NCBI GenBank assembly: GCA_001303025.1 | Contig: LJNK01000006.1 | Span: forward strand, 1-64,000 | Length of the DNA: 64,000 bases | DNA from: Deltaproteobacteria bacterium SG8_13 | Lineage (GTDB): Bacteria > Desulfobacterota > Desulfobacteria > Desulfobacterales > SG8-13 | Direction of reading: 5' to 3' | Shown: positions 38,062 to 46,789 of the stretch, in pieces | Position numbering within the stretch: position 1 is the stretch's first letter | Layout: the number at the start of each line of letters is the position of its first letter | The notes under the pieces: model-generated | Seen by the model: only the letters and a program-made list of their open reading frames with translations | What the model was told of the DNA's origin: nothing | Databases searched by the model: none | Made by a program: the position numbers and the translations under genes

Positions 38062-39426
38062 TCAGTTGCTCGGTGCGGCCCGATTGCCTGCAGATCGCTG
38101 ATGCTGCTGTGCCTGGTACATGAAGGTGCGGATCGCCGCCTCTCTGCCGGGCTGGATACTGGCGTCGAAAGCAGCATCCAGGTACGGAACTCCCGATCGG
38201 GCCATCAGGGGCTTGGCGATGGCGGCGGTGGTCATGCCCGGCATGCAGGTAAATGGATAAACATTCACCACACCGTCGTAACCACCGCGGGCGTACTCCA
38301 TAATTCCGGCGATACTCAGGCAAGCCTCGGTGTCGATGTCGAAAGAAAAGACATCCTCCTCAGCCAGTGCGTGTTCCAGATGCGATATTTTGTGATCTTC
38401 GGCCAAATCCAGCTGCCGCCAGACCCGCCGGTAAACATCTTTCTGCCGGGATTCCCGGTACATCAGCTCCAGGCCGGCAGTGACTGCCTGTTTCAGGTCG
38501 GACCGCATGGCTGCAAGTCGCCCGCGCTTTACATTCAGCCGCAATCTTCCCATCGCGCTTCTTTTTTCGATGTAATTGACGAAATTGACCCATTCTGCCA
38601 GCGATGCACAAACCACCTCGGCACCGTGTTTTTCGAGTTTCCGAATCAGGTTCTGGTTGGAGTCGGTGTGCATCCTCAAGAAAATCTCCCCCACAATTCC
38701 GATCCGCGGTTTACGCGGTATGGTCGGGTCCACCAGATCCACTGCCTTGCCGATAATGGCATCCAGCTCACGGAGTATGGCTTCCGTATCCTTATCGGCT
38801 GCGTGCGATTCAAACGCGGCGGCCATGTCCGGCACAGATATTTCCACCAGGTGATCCGCCGAACCCGGCTCTTTCTCGTAGGGCCGGATGCGCCACAACA
38901 TCCGGTCCAAGATGTCGGCGACCAGCACGGACAGGTACATCATTTTTCTGAGATCCCGGACCTTCTCTTTTTCCAGAAAACCATCCAGTGAATACCCTCC
39001 GCGGCAGGTAATGGAGCCGATCTTCAACTTGTCCAGGCCGGGAAAGGTGTCCAGGACGATACGCTGGTACTTGTTATACATGCCGAAGCGGCAAGGACCG
39101 TCCGATTCGGGCATGAAATAGACATAGTTCTCCGGGTTGAAGTCGCGGCCGAGTTTTTCGCTTTCCTGCTGGATAAAAAACAGAATGTCTCCCATGGTAA
39201 CCTGACAGGGATAGCACTCCTTGCCGGAGGTGAACTCCTGGCCCAGATCCATCCCTTTGTAGGTTTCCAGCACTCGGCCCTGAATACCGAAACTGCGGCA
39301 GACGGCTGCGATGAGGTGAGCGCCGGCGCGGTTCATTTCCGGTATCAGCACCTGTTTGTTTCCGGGATGGAACGTGCCGATATTATCTGTCAGCGACTGA
39401 AAGGCGGCTTCGCACGTCGTCTCCAT
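38062..39426 (-). CDS. acyl-CoA dehydratase activase-related protein, second part of a split pair
   Basis: A 454-residue protein with cysteine motifs similar to 2-hydroxyacyl-CoA dehydratase subunits and the C-terminal region of large activases (DUF2229-type): SGKECYPCQVTMGDILFF, SDGPCRFGMYNKYQR, ITCRGGYSLDGF and PFTCMPGMTTAAIAKPL. These cysteines probably bind a 4Fe-4S cluster. Its ATG (39426) lies inside the 3' end of the preceding activase gene (44-base overlap in another frame) and has GGAGGG upstream, so translation is coupled. In related bacteria this part is often fused to the activase as one chain of about 1400 residues. The substrate is unknown. Confidence 0.82.
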   Translation of the reverse strand: METTCEAAFQSLTDNIGTFHPGNKQVLIPEMNRAGAHLIAAVCRSFGIQGRVLETYKGMDLGQEFTSGKECYPCQVTMGDILFFIQQESEKLGRDFNPENYVYFMPESDGPCRFGMYNKYQRIVLDTFPGLDKLKIGSITCRGGYSLDGFLEKEKVRDLRKMMYLSVLVADILDRMLWRIRPYEKEPGSADHLVEISVPDMAAAFESHAADKDTEAILRELDAIIGKAVDLVDPTIPRKPRIGIVGEIFLRMHTDSNQNLIRKLEKHGAEVVCASLAEWVNFVNYIEKRSAMGRLRLNVKRGRLAAMRSDLKQAVTAGLELMYRESRQKDVYRRVWRQLDLAEDHKISHLEHALAEEDVFSFDIDTEACLSIAGIMEYARGGYDGVVNVYPFTCMPGMTTAAIAKPLMARSGVPYLDAAFDASIQPGREAAIRTFMYQAQQHQRSAGNRAAPSN

Positions 39427-42400
39427 TGTTTCCCTCCGTTTCGAATTCGGTCTGGACGATGGCGGCCACGGCCGTTTCGTTCATGCTGTTTTCGATGACG
39501 TTCTTAAATGCCTCCAGCCGCGTCATTACGCCTGCCACGGCGCTGTGCTCGTCCAGTTCCAGTATCAGATAGGCTTTATCACCCATGATGTGTCTGTAAA
39601 AATGTTCGAGAAACGAATCTGCGCCACAGCTGAAGTTGGTCAGGTGCAGCCCGAAAGCATACGGATGCTGCCTGATCCACCGGGCCGTTCGCAGGATTCG
39701 GGCACCCAGGCCCCAATACATGGTGGGGAAATCGGAAAGGTCCACGGTGTTGATATCGATAAAATCGAGCGGTAGGGCATCGATGCCAAGGCGGGCCAGG
39801 TTCCGCCCGAGGCGCAGGTTCAGCCTTTCGTCGTAGAGGTTATAGGGCCGGCCGGTTACGACGATCAGCGGGTCCTTTTCGTTTCCCCGGGTCAATATCT
39901 TCCTGCCGCAGCGCAGCAGATCAGATGAAAAGTTTTCCTGCCTGTCGAGGCCGTAGCGCAGCGCCTCTTTGACCGCCCGCTTGCGTAGTTGCAGTTTCGG
40001 TTTCAACTGTTCGAAAAGCTCCACGGCCAGGTCTTCGAACGAATTCTTCAGATGAAGGGACGGATTCAGGATGGCCGACGGGTCCAAGTGCAAGGCCGTG
40101 CGGGCCATGTAGCCGCTGCTCATGACCATTGGGCAGTAGCGGCCGACCTCCCAATCCTGGGCAGTGGGCATGTTCAGCAGGTTGGGAAGAAACAGATAGC
40201 GGGTCTTGCCGGCCAGCTCCCGGAGGTGGCCGTGGGATACTTTGACCGGGAAGCAGACGCCATCCTCGGCATGCTCGACACCGTATTTGCATATCTGCGT
40301 GTTCGTGGGCGCCGTGAAAACCGGCTGAAATCCGAGGGCATCAAAAAAGTGCGCCCACAGGATTCCGGTTTGGTGCATGTAAAGTGAACGGTGAAACCCC
40401 ACGGTCGGCCTTCCGTTTATCTCCTGGATCGTTTGGTCACCGAGAACTTCGGTCACGCCGGCCAGGTGCTGTTCCCAGAGCATCTGACGCAGCTGGAAAT
40501 GGTTTTTCTTTTTTGAACCGGACTGGCGGCTCACTTCATAGCGGCCGCACTCGCCGCCCCATACGCTGCGCCGGCCGCCGAAGTCGTAAATTTTGAGCTT
40601 GCACTGGTTGTGACAGGCGGGATCGGCCTTGCAGATCTTTTCCCTGTAATGCAGCCGGTCATCGACAGCAGAGGCCAGACCCCGAAATCGCCGCTGGTGA
40701 CGGCCCTTCATCTGCATTTTCTCGCGAAGCATGACGGCCGCACCAAATGCACCGAGGACCTCCCGGTTGGGTGGTACAATCAGCCCTCTTCCCAGAACGA
40801 TTTCAAAAGCCGCCACCACCGCCTTATTCAAAGAAGGGCCGCCCAGAAACATGACCCGGCGGCCAATTTGTCTCTTGCCGACCACCCGGTTTAGGTAGTT
40901 GTGAACAATCGCATAGCAAAGGCCGGCAAGCAGGTCTTTTTGCGCTATTCCCTGCTGGTAATACGAGACAAGGTCCGACTCCATGAAAACCGTGCATCTT
41001 TCCGCCAGTTTTACGGGGGCTTGGGAGGAAAGAGCGATCTGTTGAAATTCTTCGACGATGTTGATGCTATACTTGCTGGCCAGTTCATGCAGAAAACTGC
41101 CTGTGCCGGCAGCACAGACCTTGTTCATGTCAAAATCGAGGGGATGCGTGTTGACAATCTGGATATATTTTGAATCCTGGCCTCCGATTTCAAAAATCGT
41201 GTCTACCTGCCGGTCGATTTCCACCGCCCCTCTGGCATGTGCCGTGATTTCGTCTACGATGACGTCGGCATGCAGGAAATCGCCCACCACGTTGCGACCG
41301 GATCCGGTGGTGGCGGCGCCCAGAATTTCGACCGTGCTGCCGAACTTGTCGCGAATGCCGGCGAGCAGCTCCTGTGTCACTTCGATCGGTTTTCCCCTCG
41401 TGGGCACATAGCGCTTATCGACCAGTGTCTGGTGATCATCGATCAGCGCATACTTGGTGGTCGTCGAGCCGATGTCGATTCCCAGAAAAACGCCCAAATG
41501 ACCGCTGGCAGCACGTCGTGCCAGGCCTTCCTCGGCGGGCATTTCTGTTTTTTTCAACTGCAGCCGGGGCGCTCTGGCAACCCTCACCTCCCTGCCCCAA
41601 TCTGTTTCTTTTAGTGACCCGAGGCGCAGATCGTCCGTCTGCTGCGATTCAATTGCCTTGAGGGCGGCCCCGAGAGCACCCGTTGACGTGTTCAGGCGGG
41701 GTACCGTCAGGTTCGGGAAATAGCTCCGGAAGGCTTTGACCTGGAGGGCATTTAAAGAAAGACCGCCGACAAACGCGATCGGCTCTTCGAGCTGCTGGGT
41801 GGAAACGATGGTGCTGATGAAGTTTCTGGCATTACCCACGTGCAGGCCGTGGATGATGTCCTGAAGCTTTTCACCTTTGTTCTGCAGGTGAATCATGTCC
41901 GATTTGGTAAAAACCGTGCAGCGGGAGGCCACGTTGGCAGGTTGTTCACTTTGCAGTCCCAGTTCGATAAAATCTGAAAGTATCTTGTCGATTTGATTTT
42001 GAGACAGCTCCTTGTTTTTCTCATACAAAGCGGTGGCCAGCCGTTCGGCCTGCTGGTCGATGAAAGAGCCGGTTCCCGACGCGCAGGGACCGTTCGTTTT
42101 GAAATGCGCCAGTTCCCAGTGACCGTTATTGTGATGGATCTGAAACAAAGACGCATCCTGCCCGCCCATGCTGATGATCGAGCGGGCATTGGGAACGACG
42201 GTCAGCACACCCAGGATCTGGCTGATGGTTTCGAATTCGTAATCGGCGTTCAGCTTTTCCGCCGGTCTTTTGCCGTGGGCACCGGTAAACGCGATCGAAC
42301 GGATGTTTTTTTCGCCGAAACGCTCGCCGGTTTTACGAATTACGTGATATACTTCTTCTTCCACACGGCCGAAGTGGCGTTTATAAGGCGTTTCGAAGAC

Positions 42401-42505
42401 AATATGGCCATTTCCGTCGACGACCACCGCATTGACGCTCACCGAGCCGGCATCGATCCCCAGGTAGAGTCCGTTGGCTGGATTTTCGCTCAGATGTTTT
42501 CCCAT
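39383..42505 (-). CDS. large acyl-CoA dehydratase activase-like protein with two ASKHA ATPase domains
   Basis: A 1040-residue protein. It contains two BadF/HgdC-type ATPase domains, starting with LYLGIDAGSVSVNAVVV (about residue 13) and GVFLGIDIGSTTTKYALI (about residue 320). Each has the cluster-ligand loop, GPCASGTGSFIDQQA and KVCAAGTGSFLHELA, where the cysteine bridges a [4Fe-4S] cluster in the HgdC dimer. The C-terminal 400 residues are a DUF2229-like region with more cysteines (GVCFPVKVSHGH). In known systems such ATPases inject one electron into 2-hydroxyacyl-CoA dehydratase or benzoyl-CoA reductase. Having two domains in tandem could mimic the HgdC homodimer. GGAGGAAAT precedes the ATG at 42505. 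No dehydratase subunits are adjacent. Confidence 0.88.
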   Translation of the reverse strand: MGKHLSENPANGLYLGIDAGSVSVNAVVVDGNGHIVFETPYKRHFGRVEEEVYHVIRKTGERFGEKNIRSIAFTGAHGKRPAEKLNADYEFETISQILGVLTVVPNARSIISMGGQDASLFQIHHNNGHWELAHFKTNGPCASGTGSFIDQQAERLATALYEKNKELSQNQIDKILSDFIELGLQSEQPANVASRCTVFTKSDMIHLQNKGEKLQDIIHGLHVGNARNFISTIVSTQQLEEPIAFVGGLSLNALQVKAFRSYFPNLTVPRLNTSTGALGAALKAIESQQTDDLRLGSLKETDWGREVRVARAPRLQLKKTEMPAEEGLARRAASGHLGVFLGIDIGSTTTKYALIDDHQTLVDKRYVPTRGKPIEVTQELLAGIRDKFGSTVEILGAATTGSGRNVVGDFLHADVIVDEITAHARGAVEIDRQVDTIFEIGGQDSKYIQIVNTHPLDFDMNKVCAAGTGSFLHELASKYSINIVEEFQQIALSSQAPVKLAERCTVFMESDLVSYYQQGIAQKDLLAGLCYAIVHNYLNRVVGKRQIGRRVMFLGGPSLNKAVVAAFEIVLGRGLIVPPNREVLGAFGAAVMLREKMQMKGRHQRRFRGLASAVDDRLHYREKICKADPACHNQCKLKIYDFGGRRSVWGGECGRYEVSRQSGSKKKNHFQLRQMLWEQHLAGVTEVLGDQTIQEINGRPTVGFHRSLYMHQTGILWAHFFDALGFQPVFTAPTNTQICKYGVEHAEDGVCFPVKVSHGHLRELAGKTRYLFLPNLLNMPTAQDWEVGRYCPMVMSSGYMARTALHLDPSAILNPSLHLKNSFEDLAVELFEQLKPKLQLRKRAVKEALRYGLDRQENFSSDLLRCGRKILTRGNEKDPLIVVTGRPYNLYDERLNLRLGRNLARLGIDALPLDFIDINTVDLSDFPTMYWGLGARILRTARWIRQHPYAFGLHLTNFSCGADSFLEHFYRHIMGDKAYLILELDEHSAVAGVMTRLEAFKNVIENSMNETAVAAIVQTEFETEGNNGDDVRSRLSVADR

Positions 42506-42585: not shown

Positions 42586-42948
42586 CTAAGCAAACAGCAT
42601 ACCATATCGGAAACCGGGTCTGCGAAGCGATTCGTAAAACATTTTCCGCAGCAAGTCGAAACGATATTTGCGGATGGATTTCGGGTTGTTGACTTTTCTA
42701 TCGGGTTTGCAGGCCCGCCGGAAAATCCTGACGGTGGGCGCATTGTTTTTTGCCGAAGAGAAGCAGCCATCAATTGTGCAAGGTAGCAGCAAAAGTTGAC
42801 AAATCCGGCAGCGGTCCGGGGCAGCTTTCAGATATTGCAGTAATTCCAGTGGCTTAACAGGCGGCAACGCCGGTTGCTCCTGCAACAAAGATTTCACCCT
42901 TACGATTTCGGCTCCGTCTGGCAGCGGCGGGCAAGGTTTTTTGTACAT
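42586..42948 (-). CDS. candidate small cysteine-containing protein, unproven
   Basis: A 120-codon frame starting with ATG 11 bases after the response-regulator stop codon. The product (MYKKPCPPLPDGAEIVRVKS and on) has a leucine/proline-rich first half, CRICQLLLLPC and a basic second half (RRACKPDRKVNNPKSIRKYR). No Shine-Dalgarno site is visible and I recognise no family. The region also contains an imperfect hairpin. It is listed because the 388-base gap otherwise holds nothing. Confidence 0.25.
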   Translation of the reverse strand: MYKKPCPPLPDGAEIVRVKSLLQEQPALPPVKPLELLQYLKAAPDRCRICQLLLLPCTIDGCFSSAKNNAPTVRIFRRACKPDRKVNNPKSIRKYRFDLLRKMFYESLRRPGFRYGMLFA

Positions 42949-42959
42949 CGCAATGGCGG

Positions 42960-44378
42960 TTATCGCCTTATTTTTCGTAGACGTCGGTTCAGCGCCTGGC
43001 GGGTGATGCCCAGGTGCATAGCGGCTATGGCCTGATTGCCTTCCGAGCGCTTCATGGCTTCATCGATCAGAAGCTGTTCGGCCTGCTTGAGGGTCGGCAG
43101 CGGATCGGTGAAGCGCAGCAGGGGTTGGGGACAAAAATCAGAGCTCCGGGAATCGGGACTGTTGCCCGGCAGGCTTTGTCCGATGTGCTTGCGAAATACA
43201 TCCAGAGACAGCTTGCCGGACTTGTGGCAGCTGACCGCGTCCAATGTCATCGCTTCGAGTTCCCGAATGTTGCCGGGGAAGTGATAGCTGGAAAGCAGCA
43301 CCACCAGTTCTTCCGGTGGAGTCGGTTTCTTTTTATTCAGGGCGGAAGCCGCTTTTTCAAGAAAATGGTCAACGAGAAGCGGAAGGTCCTCCCGCCGGTC
43401 CCGCAGGGGCGGAACGATCACGTGGTGGCTGCACAGCCGATAGTAAAAATCCTTGCGGAACCGGCCGGACTCCCTCAGATCGTTCAGGTCCCGGTTGGTA
43501 GCGGCAATGATGCGGGCATCCGATCGCTTCGGGATGTCCGATCCGAGGGGAAAGTACTCTCCCTCCTGCAGCAGGCGCAGCAGGGTGACCTGGACATCGA
43601 TTCCCAGATCGCCGATTTCATCCAGAAACAGGGTGCCGCCGGAAGCCTGTTCCACCAAACCGCTGCGCGGCTTGTCGGCACTGGTGTAAGCGCCCTTTTT
43701 ATGGCCGAACAGGGTATCGTACACCATTTTTTCATCCATTCCGGCAATGTTGACCGCTACGTAATTGCCAGGCCTTGCGCTGAGGCGGTGAACCGCCCCG
43801 GCGATCATCTCCTTGCCGACACCGGTTTCGCCGGTGATGACAACCGGATGCGGGCTGACGGAGACCGCTTCGATATACCGGAACACGGAATGCATGGCGC
43901 TGCTGCAGGTGACGATTTCCGCGAAGCACTCGGGATGTTTCAGCCTGTCGGACAGCACGCGGTCTTTCAGCAGGCTGTTTTCGCGTCGAAGCTCGCACAG
44001 CTGGATGGCCCTGAGGGTAGCCGAAATCAGCCGGCTTGTCTCCACCGGCTTGACCAGGTAATCGAACGCACCGGATTTCATGCAGGCAACGGCGGTTTCC
44101 ACATCATCGGCGGCAGTGATGATGATAACCGGCAGCTCGGGGTGTTCCTGCCGGAGTGTCGATAGCAGCTCTTCCCCGGATATATGCGGCATTCGCAGGT
44201 CCAGCAAAATAAGCTCCGGCGGCTGCTGTTGCAGCAGTGGCAGCACTTCGCGGCTGTCCTGGCAGCGGAGGAAATGATTGATTCTGGCCGAACGCAGTAC
44301 GTTTTCGAAACTGTTGAGCGCCTGCGGCTCATCATCCACCAGCATCACGGGCAGCTGCGGGTAAACAGTTGCATTCAT
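42960..44378 (-). CDS. NtrC-family sigma-54-dependent response regulator
   Basis: A 472-residue regulator: receiver domain with phospho-acceptor Asp60 (LILLDLRMP) and Lys110 (YLVKP), an AAA+ sigma-54 activator domain, and a Fis-type helix-turn-helix at the C-terminus (IAAMHLGITRQALNRRLRK). The AAA+ domain has Walker A GETGVGKE (183-190) and Walker B FLDEIG (251-256). The sigma-54 contact loop reads GAYTSA (229-234) instead of the canonical GAFTGA. The ATG at 44378 overlaps the kinase stop codon (ATGA), so the pair is translationally coupled. Target genes are not apparent; the divergent or nearby loci give no sigma-54 promoter that I could identify. Confidence 0.92.
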   Translation of the reverse strand: MNATVYPQLPVMLVDDEPQALNSFENVLRSARINHFLRCQDSREVLPLLQQQPPELILLDLRMPHISGEELLSTLRQEHPELPVIIITAADDVETAVACMKSGAFDYLVKPVETSRLISATLRAIQLCELRRENSLLKDRVLSDRLKHPECFAEIVTCSSAMHSVFRYIEAVSVSPHPVVITGETGVGKEMIAGAVHRLSARPGNYVAVNIAGMDEKMVYDTLFGHKKGAYTSADKPRSGLVEQASGGTLFLDEIGDLGIDVQVTLLRLLQEGEYFPLGSDIPKRSDARIIAATNRDLNDLRESGRFRKDFYYRLCSHHVIVPPLRDRREDLPLLVDHFLEKAASALNKKKPTPPEELVVLLSSYHFPGNIRELEAMTLDAVSCHKSGKLSLDVFRKHIGQSLPGNSPDSRSSDFCPQPLLRFTDPLPTLKQAEQLLIDEAMKRSEGNQAIAAMHLGITRQALNRRLRKIRR

Positions 44379-46309
44379 GTCATCACTCCGGTATTCGCGC
44401 CGGCCGCCGGCAGGGACACAACGACCCTTGTCCCCCTGCCCGGCTCGGAAGTAAATCGCATATGGCCGCCGTGCTCCTCGACGATCTTGGAAGATATAGA
44501 CAACCCCAGCCCGACACCGCCGGTGTCGTACCGGGTGGTGTAAAACGTGTCGGTGACGTGGGGCAGGTTTTCCGCCGGAATACCCTCTCCCTGGTCTTCG
44601 ACGGTCAAAACGACCTGGCGGGAACGGCCCTCGAATGTCGTGGAAACGGCGATACCGGCCTGGGAATTTGGCAGCGCCTGGCAGGCGTTTTGAACGAGAT
44701 TGATGATGACCTGTTCGAGGCGCTGGGCATTGCCGTTGATAAACGGCAAATTTTTTCCGTAACGAACGGTGAATCGGCGAGTCGACCGGCGAACCATGTG
44801 AGAAACCAGCGACAGTGCCGATTTCACGACTTGATTGATGTCCACCGGCTCGGTCAGATCGGCAGTTCCTTTGCGCACGTAATTTTTCAAATCCTCGATG
44901 ATCTGCTCGATCCGACGGGTACCGTCCACAATCCCTGAAAACAGGGTAGGGATCCGCGAGCGCATTTCCGAATAAGACAGACCACCGAGGATGAAATCTC
45001 CGTTTTCTTCGTAATATTCGTCGAGGATCGGACGGATGCCTATCCACGCCTCTTCCAGCAGCGGCGTGTTGAGCATGATGAAGTTGTTGGGATTGTTGAT
45101 TTCGTGAGCGACGCCGGAGACCAGCGTGCCGAGGGCGATCATTTTGCCGGCCTGGTACAACTGCTCCTGGTGAAGTCGGTCTTTTTCCTCCGCCAGCTTG
45201 CGTTCGGTGGTGTCGCGTCCGAAACACCGGAAACCGATTGGCTGCCCCCGGGCGTTTCGCATCAGATTGATCGAACCCTCAAAATAGCGTCTTTGTCCAT
45301 CTTTGCGGATAAACTCCCAGTCATGGATCAAGCAGGATCTGCCGGTGCGATACACCTCGTTGAAGGTGTCATAAGCGATTTTTGATTGCCGCTCGTCCAT
45401 AAGGTCCCTGTTGTTCCTTCCGATCAGCTCCTCGGCGCTGTAACCGGAGTATTTGCAGACTGTCGGGTTGAAAAATTTCAGATTGCCGGACAGATCCAGC
45501 TCCAGATACCCGTCTTCGATGTTGAGCAGAATTTCGCGATATCGCTTTTCACTCTCCTGCAGGGCCTTTTCCACTTTGCCTTGTTCGATCCGCAGGGCGT
45601 GCCAGAGAGAAGGGATGTTGGTTTGCCATTGCCGCAAAATGCCGGTCATAAAGATTTCTTCAATGCCGGAAAGTATGACGATCGGTGAGATCAAGCGAAA
45701 CGGCCATGCCGGGCCGCCCAGAATTATCAGGAAAATGGTAAGGCTCAGCAGCACCGCCGACAGCTTGGCGCCCCAAGTGTGATAACTGGTGAGACGGCCG
45801 TACTTCAGCAGGCCGAGCAGCGCCGGAACCACGTGGAATATCACCAGAGCGATGATAAAGGCAGCCTCTCGGCGCACGATTTCAGGCCAGAGAATCCAGG
45901 CGCACAGGGGAATGGTGACAAAAGCGGCCAATACCCCCCAGCTGTCGAGTTCGGCACCGAAATCGGTTACTTGGCCCAACCGGCGGGCAAGAATGCCGTC
46001 CGCCAGGGCCATCAGGAGCAGGACCGCCAGGGTGATTTCGAAAAACAGGGGCCTTCCGGTCCAGGCGGCAAACAGCAGCAAGGGCATGGAAATCAAGCGA
46101 AGAATGCTCAACAGGTTGGGGATTGAGAAGGACCGGCCCATCAGCTCGATGGGCCGGTCGTATTTGGCCAGCGAGTCGATGGAATGTTTCATGGAGCTGA
46201 ACATGCCGGTCCAGCCGGTAAGCGTCGAACTCCGGTTGCCGGATTCAGCAACCGGTCGATCCTCTTCCGTTGCGGGAGATTGATCCGCTTGCGATTTCTT
46301 TGGTTCCAT
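44375..46309 (-). CDS. sensor histidine kinase with N-terminal degenerate CDP-alcohol phosphatidyltransferase membrane domain
   Basis: A 644-residue kinase. Residues about 62-225 form a multi-spanning membrane domain homologous to PgsA-type phosphatidyltransferases: FSIPNLLSILRLISMPLLLF, then ADGILARRLGQVTDFGAELD. The CDP-alcohol motif keeps the second Asp (104), Gly105, Ala108-Arg109, Gly118 and the third Asp (122), but the first Asp is Ala101 and the fourth (catalytic) Asp is Val126. It is therefore probably not an enzyme but a lipid- or nucleotide-binding sensor. A PAS domain (about 255-370), HisKA with phospho-acceptor His402 (GVAHEINNPNNF) and a HATPase domain (NLVQNA, DQGEGIP, GVGLGLS) follow. 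ATG 46309 was chosen; 46411 is an alternative. Confidence 0.88.
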   Translation of the reverse strand: MEPKKSQADQSPATEEDRPVAESGNRSSTLTGWTGMFSSMKHSIDSLAKYDRPIELMGRSFSIPNLLSILRLISMPLLLFAAWTGRPLFFEITLAVLLLMALADGILARRLGQVTDFGAELDSWGVLAAFVTIPLCAWILWPEIVRREAAFIIALVIFHVVPALLGLLKYGRLTSYHTWGAKLSAVLLSLTIFLIILGGPAWPFRLISPIVILSGIEEIFMTGILRQWQTNIPSLWHALRIEQGKVEKALQESEKRYREILLNIEDGYLELDLSGNLKFFNPTVCKYSGYSAEELIGRNNRDLMDERQSKIAYDTFNEVYRTGRSCLIHDWEFIRKDGQRRYFEGSINLMRNARGQPIGFRCFGRDTTERKLAEEKDRLHQEQLYQAGKMIALGTLVSGVAHEINNPNNFIMLNTPLLEEAWIGIRPILDEYYEENGDFILGGLSYSEMRSRIPTLFSGIVDGTRRIEQIIEDLKNYVRKGTADLTEPVDINQVVKSALSLVSHMVRRSTRRFTVRYGKNLPFINGNAQRLEQVIINLVQNACQALPNSQAGIAVSTTFEGRSRQVVLTVEDQGEGIPAENLPHVTDTFYTTRYDTGGVGLGLSISSKIVEEHGGHMRFTSEPGRGTRVVVSLPAAGANTGVMT

Positions 46310-46715: not shown

Positions 46716-46789
46716 TGGCTGAGGGACTAGGATTCGAACCTAGGTTAACGGGGCCAGAACCCGTCGTCCTGCCACTAGACGATCCCTCA
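46716..46789 (-). tRNA. tRNA-Gln (anticodon CUG)
   Basis: A complete 74-base cloverleaf with encoded CCA. The acceptor stem TGAGGGA/TCCCTCA is perfect, the D arm has GTC/GAC, and the anticodon stem ACGGG/CCCGT encloses the loop TTCTGGC, giving anticodon CTG. The T arm is CTAGG-TTCGAAT-CCTAG. The discriminator base is G. It lies 34 bases downstream of gltX on the same strand, and its terminator follows. Confidence 0.95.

Follow-up and report, generated by a model that had tools for sequence, protein, structure and literature searches.

The DesK/DesR pair of Bacillus subtilis is a membrane-lipid-sensing system (PMC6879721, PMC8301901), and fusions of a lipid-head-group enzyme fold with a histidine kinase have been predicted among the Lipocone/VanZ-RDD proteins (PMC12419801). 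On the enzymatic side, the plasmalogen synthase PlsA/PlsR and the glycerol ester reductase Ger consist of two activation and two reduction domains, either fused or split, and two PF01869 domains are typical of Ger (PMC12838417, PMC13274423). Expression in Escherichia coli of Ger from the sulfate reducer Desulfatibacillum alkenivorans led to mono- and diether lipids (PMC11150832). As to how anaerobic bacteria decide on ether or vinyl-ether lipids, the only hint in the literature consulted is a TetR-like regulator gene beside pls in facultative anaerobes, reported from Enterococcus (PMC9702350).

In this work we analysed a stretch of 64,000 nucleotides (the window; positions 1 to 64,000 of contig LJNK01000006.1) of Deltaproteobacteria bacterium SG8_13, and focused on a gene for a sensor histidine kinase whose membrane domain resembles a phospholipid synthase, together with the adjoining genes for an NtrC-type response regulator and a two-protein reductase (Table 1). 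The fused kinase is a real and conserved sensor architecture, and probably a variant of two-component lipid sensing. Full-text searches in an open-licence library returned no report of such a kinase fusion.

A phosphatidyltransferase fold in a histidine kinase

An earlier note, made from the letters of the window, had described the kinase as coupled to an NtrC-type regulator and as receiving its input through a degenerate CDP-alcohol phosphatidyltransferase fold, and had proposed a profile search, a structure prediction compared with PgsA and a survey of genomes for the same fusion. All three agree with that description, and neither of the outcomes that would have spoken against it, an insignificant profile match or a predicted fold unlike that of phosphatidyltransferases, was seen. 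PF01066 matched residues 62-199/204 of the kinase (residue 61 being the start of FSIPNLLSILRL), with E-values of 2.8e-12 for the whole protein and 3.9e-13 for its N-terminal part, above the curated cut-off, and the kinase ranked third among the four PF01066 genes of its own genome. A profile of the domain family, searched against PDB sequences, found chains of PSS, PgsA and PIP synthase (best 2.8e-9 to 4e-6). The AlphaFold2 model of the sensor domain (36 rows) was confident, with a mean pLDDT of 92.3, a pTM of 0.84 and six long membrane-type helices. When it was compared with the PDB using Foldseek, PgsA (7drj/7drk) came first (TM 0.57-0.72, probability 1.00) and the best 27 matches were all CDP-alcohol phosphotransferases, with a best E-value no better than 2e-3 despite the probability of 1.00. 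On account of these Pfam and PDB profile matches, the model and the Foldseek results, the observation is real. An assembly artefact as the origin of the fusion was ruled out by its presence in several independent genomes. They belong to three lineages, namely the genus of the window, the genome G005 and the genus of G519, and the fused proteins form a single clade (95/95) in a maximum-likelihood tree. The remainder of the protein is that of a two-component kinase, with HATPase_c (1.1e-26), HisKA (1.4e-5, slightly below its cut-off) bearing H402, and an adjacent receiver gene with D60.

The signature of active CDP-alcohol phosphatidyltransferases, D-x2-DG-x2-AR-x8-G-x3-D-x3-D, contains four aspartates (Asp1 to Asp4), the first of which is a metal ligand. 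It is incomplete in the window kinase, where A101 stands for Asp1 and V126 for Asp4; these two residues, as well as D104, G105, A108, R109, G118, D122 and H402, lie exactly where the earlier note had placed them. Among relatives of the domain, gathered from GTDB genomes and from the order and phylum of the window, all four aspartates are present in 54 of 54 stand-alone proteins, and Asp1 is absent from the eight fused proteins. It is replaced by A in the genus of the window, by S in G005 and by G in the G519 genus, and the position of Asp4 is occupied by V, V and D, respectively. Since the fused proteins form one clade, this amounts to a single event for Asp1, in their common ancestor, with Asp4 lost later in one branch, and not to eight events. 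The earlier interpretation is partly supported. The domain is probably non-catalytic, as the note had argued from the loss of two aspartates; Asp1 is gone in all fused kinases, and the loss of Asp4 is limited to two of the three lineages. The domain might still be an enzyme with altered chemistry, the flux through it being the signal, as Asp2 and Asp3 are kept and the G519 lineage keeps Asp4 too; we regard this as very improbable, given that an aspartate found in every stand-alone relative has gone from every fused protein.

In an alignment of the proteins of the window, its sister species and G005 with 33 stand-alone proteins, D104, G105, A108, R109, G118, D122 and an S-Y-x-T-W signature were invariant. 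Between the window and the sister species (one pair, NG86), the ratio of nonsynonymous to synonymous substitutions (dN/dS) was 0.058 for the sensor, 0.058 for the PAS domain and 0.117 for the kinase core. The sensor domain is under strong purifying selection, and is kept rather than decaying. Loss of Asp1, and here also of Asp4, with retention of Asp2, Asp3, the AR dyad and the TSYHTWGAK motif, points to binding of a head group without turnover. Alternatively, the same circuit could respond to the bulk state of the membrane (thickness, fluidity, curvature), as DesK does, the pocket being a relic without ligand. In its favour, six membrane helices lead into a signalling helix in the cytoplasm, and all fused proteins are without Asp1. 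Against it, a mere gauge would need neither Asp2, Asp3, the AR dyad and S-Y-x-T-W, invariant in the aligned fused rows, nor a sensor domain under stronger constraint than the kinase core. We consider this explanation unlikely. The CDP-alcohol transferases known so far form dimers whose active site faces the cytoplasm, and the six membrane helices with the C-terminal helix make the domain suited to a dimeric kinase.

The position of the domain as the input of the kinase is indicated by a sensor swap. In three genera (g31, g109 and g33) an orthologous PAS-kinase and regulator lie beside the reductase pair, with a 7TMR-DISM sensor instead; identities are 55-65% for the kinase core and 61-65% for the regulator, and a tree of kinase and regulator splits by sensor type (100/99). 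The sensor type thus varies in an otherwise constant circuit, which places the CDP-alcohol domain in the sensor slot.

Stand-alone proteins with LDSWGD and TSYHTWGAK signatures (L038-L085) occur in Geobacter, Myxococcota, Porticoccaceae/SAR92 and Kiritimatiellota. The genome of the window has one copy (G000 C72:124177-124713; L002/L103), and no lipid genes were recognised in its neighbourhood. In another genome (G038, L146:6458-11858), a fused PlsA-like DUF2229 protein of 1482 amino acids is followed by a stand-alone degenerate CDP-alcohol protein (NRIDG...GKELGSLSE) with altered Asp1, Asp3 and Asp4, another possible pseudoenzyme beside a PlsA-like gene.

The regulator, the reductase pair and its predicted promoter

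The start of the regulator gene overlaps the kinase stop codon (ATGA). Kinase, regulator, reductase large protein and its partner are found together in the genus of the window, G005 and the G519 genus, in differing gene orders; identities to G005 and the G519 genus are about 61-64% for the large protein, 56-59% for the partner and 62-65% for the regulator. That these genes for kinase, regulator and reductase are genetically coupled is, in our view, highly probable. The split reductase pair was detected in 29 of 291 genomes of the order.

Table 1. Coordinates of the features in the window
Feature	Position	Strand	Basis or remark
Sensor histidine kinase, 644 amino acids: CDP-OH-like membrane domain, PAS, HisKA (His402), HATPase_c	44375..46309	-	Open reading frame and Pfam
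Degenerate CDP-alcohol phosphatidyltransferase domain, residues 57-248: six predicted membrane helices and C-terminal signalling helix	45566..46141	-	PF01066, AlphaFold2, Foldseek, subfamily alignment
CDP-OH signature A101-x2-D104-G-x2-A-R-x8-G118-x3-D122-x3-V126, without Asp1 and Asp4	45932..46009	-	
PAS domain, residues 256-366	45212..45544	-	PF00989, 2.1e-15
HisKA and HATPase_c, residues 385-636, His402 within AHEINNPNN	44402..45157	-	
NtrC-type response regulator, 472 amino acids: receiver (Asp60), sigma-54 AAA+, Fis helix-turn-helix	42960..44378	-	
Candidate upstream activator site GTGAAA-N6-TTGCAG	42880..42897	-	Degenerate copy of the GTGCAA-N6-TTGCAC dyad of other lineages
Second candidate activator site TGTCAACTTTTGCTGCTA, 96 bp downstream of the first	42784..42801	-	Weak alone; resembles TGTCAA-N6-TTGCAC of other lineages
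Predicted sigma-54 (-24/-12) promoter TGGTATGCTGTTTGCT of the reductase operon	42589..42604	-	Identical in sister species
Reductase large protein, 1040 amino acids from ATG 42505 (1062 from TTG 42571): two BcrAD_BadFG activase domains and DUF2229	39383..42505	-	
HgdB-like partner, 454 amino acids; conserved Cys in SGKECYPC, GPCRFGMYNKY and PFTCMP	38062..39426	-	

The large protein contains two PF01869 domains in addition to DUF2229. Its partner had no match in Pfam, and searches of the PDB with the HgdB-like protein and its family gave none either, but fused DUF2229 proteins of the PlsA/Ger type (1400-1530 amino acids) have a C-terminal part homologous to the partner, which makes the pair a split form of such proteins. 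The pair has the domains described for PlsA/PlsR or Ger, namely two activase domains, DUF2229 and an HgdB-like reductase part. In two genomes the large gene lies directly 3' of an intact pgsA (58 bp in G039, 262 bp in G053), which together with the domain layout favours a phospholipid substrate without proving it, and we consider it somewhat more probable than not that the substrate is a lipid. The other explanation is that the reductase acts on an acyl-CoA, an aromatic compound or a small molecule, and that the CDP-alcohol fold was recruited merely as a convenient membrane anchor. It would be in keeping with the near-universal occurrence of DUF2229 proteins in the order and with the alternative 7TMR-DISM sensor, which has no obvious lipid link; however, the double-activase layout fits Ger/PlsA, two genera have pgsA immediately 5' of the large gene, and the sensor pocket is under strong selection, which makes this explanation improbable to us.

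DUF2229 proteins were also detected in the control genomes of Thermotoga maritima, Lactococcus lactis, Thermus composti and Deinobacterium, and were absent from E. coli and B. subtilis; ger or pls genes have been reported for the species T. maritima and L. lactis or for close kin of theirs. The genome of the window encodes a second, fused DUF2229 protein of 1458 amino acids (G000 C120, L148:1266-5642). No lipid genes were recognised in the neighbourhood of the nearest fused DUF2229 relative (G008). In the genus g44 (L199, L200), the split pair adjoins menB-like and menH-like genes in two genomes, and a menD-like gene in one.

Sigma-54 promoters were scored with a simple weighted consensus built for this analysis. 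In lineages bearing the regulator, 13 of the 15 reductase loci scored at least 0.84, twelve of them with the element adjacent to the gene. The thirteenth is G005, whose reductase is preceded by three small genes; its promoter (TGGAACAAGCCTTGCT, 0.86) lies at the head of the operon. All 11 loci without regulator scored 0.76 or less. The difference (Mann-Whitney p=4e-5, G005 being entered at its low gene-adjacent score) is optimistic because the loci are related and relatedness was uncorrected. At two of the 15 loci the retrieved sequence does not include the regulator: the genome of L190, its second reductase copy, has the regulator elsewhere, and for L191 the other members of its genus have it. 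The three small open reading frames of G005 (L101:5201-6691) lie between promoter and reductase genes, and some begin like lipoproteins.

Farther upstream than the promoters, dyads resembling GTGCAA-N6-TTGCAC occur as pairs spaced by 85-90 bp in the G519 genus, G031, G126, G090, G171 and G005 (shuffle p 0.00-0.04 each), a significance that is partly circular, since the dyad was spotted in the same regions that were later scored. A dyad-defined regulon was also considered; matches exceeded the reversed control in most of 13 genomes, but an exact match (G769, 581340) fell inside an mlaF-like coding region, and no regulon is claimed. Directly upstream of the kinase, the window contains a tRNA-Gln(CTG) gene (46716-46789) and then gltX.

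Proposed circuit

We propose that the kinase, probably dimeric, is a protein of the cytoplasmic membrane whose input domain is a pseudoenzyme with the fold of CDP-alcohol phosphatidyltransferases, and that this domain probably binds a CDP-lipid or a phospholipid head group without turnover. Occupancy would alter the helix that leads into PAS-HisKA, so that the lipid state would govern both autophosphorylation at His402 and phosphotransfer to Asp60 in the regulator, which is co-translated with the kinase. The regulator would bind GTGCAA-N6-TTGCAC-like sites and activate the sigma-54 promoter of the neighbouring reductase pair. This pair is most likely an enzyme of the PlsA/Ger type in split form and would convert phospholipid ester bonds into vinyl or alkyl ethers. 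That a dead phospholipid-synthase fold senses the CDP-diacylglycerol/phospholipid state and switches ester-to-ether lipid conversion is the explanation that we favour by a little. In a more specific form, put forward tentatively, the pseudoenzyme would be a CDP-diacylglycerol/phospholipid receptor controlling this conversion via a sigma-54 two-component system, a direct feedback from head-group synthesis to membrane core chemistry. As to the sensor ligand, a lipid or CDP-lipid appears to us about as probable as anything else taken together.

Several points weigh against a lipid-responsive circuit of this kind. The sensor ligand is inferred, and the G519 genus retains Asp4. The comparison of the pair with PlsA/Ger was one of layouts described in papers; neither NCBIfam nor Pfam has a model that identifies the pair as a lipid enzyme, and no NCBIfam model marks plasmalogen synthase. 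DUF2229 proteins occur in 54 of the 58 relatives searched, so that the reductase substrate could differ from a lipid. Among the promoters, that of L149 scores 0.76 and that of L189 is degenerate. The dyads of the window are weak, singly and as a pair (two-site p=0.23), and no clear pair was seen in the g33 genus. Finally, the regulator loop (residues 229-234) reads GAYTSA in the window and GAYTGA in the sister species, as against GAFTGA in g33, G005 and the G519 genus. The GAYTSA loop may change the sigma-54 contact.

If true, the proposed circuit names the sensor, regulator, promoter and enzyme of ether-lipid control in bacteria of the sulfate-reducer type, provides a clear receptor candidate for CDP-diacylglycerol or phospholipid, and represents a membrane enzyme turned into a sensor domain, suggesting a new way for cells to gauge and adjust their own membranes.

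Comparison with known systems

The sensor domain shares its fold, signature spacing and PF01066 membership with the phosphatidylglycerophosphate synthase PgsA, but lacks Asp1 and Asp4 and is fused to a PAS domain and a histidine kinase; its closest kin is the uncharacterised LDSWGD/TSYHTWGAK stand-alone subfamily, and not PgsA. DesK is likewise a polytopic membrane kinase in a system whose output remodels membrane lipid, an output that is inferred here. However, DesK spans the membrane with five helices and lacks an enzyme fold, whereas in the present system a former lipid enzyme serves as the sensor, the regulator belongs to the sigma-54 type and a reductase operon is the probable target. With PlsA-PlsR and Ger (PMC12838417, PMC11150832, PMC13274423) the pair has in common two activase domains, DUF2229 and the HgdB-like part, and it is split into two genes, as is PlsA-PlsR of Clostridium perfringens; it is about 27-38% identical to the fused DUF2229 proteins of relatives, and was compared with PlsA/Ger by layout. 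The predicted Lipocone/VanZ-RDD fusions also join a lipid-head-group enzyme fold to a histidine kinase, but their fold is unrelated and lipid-modifying activity is thought to be kept there. In the 7TMR-DISM histidine kinases, an orthologous PAS-kinase and regulator stand beside the same reductase pair, and it is the input domain that is swapped.
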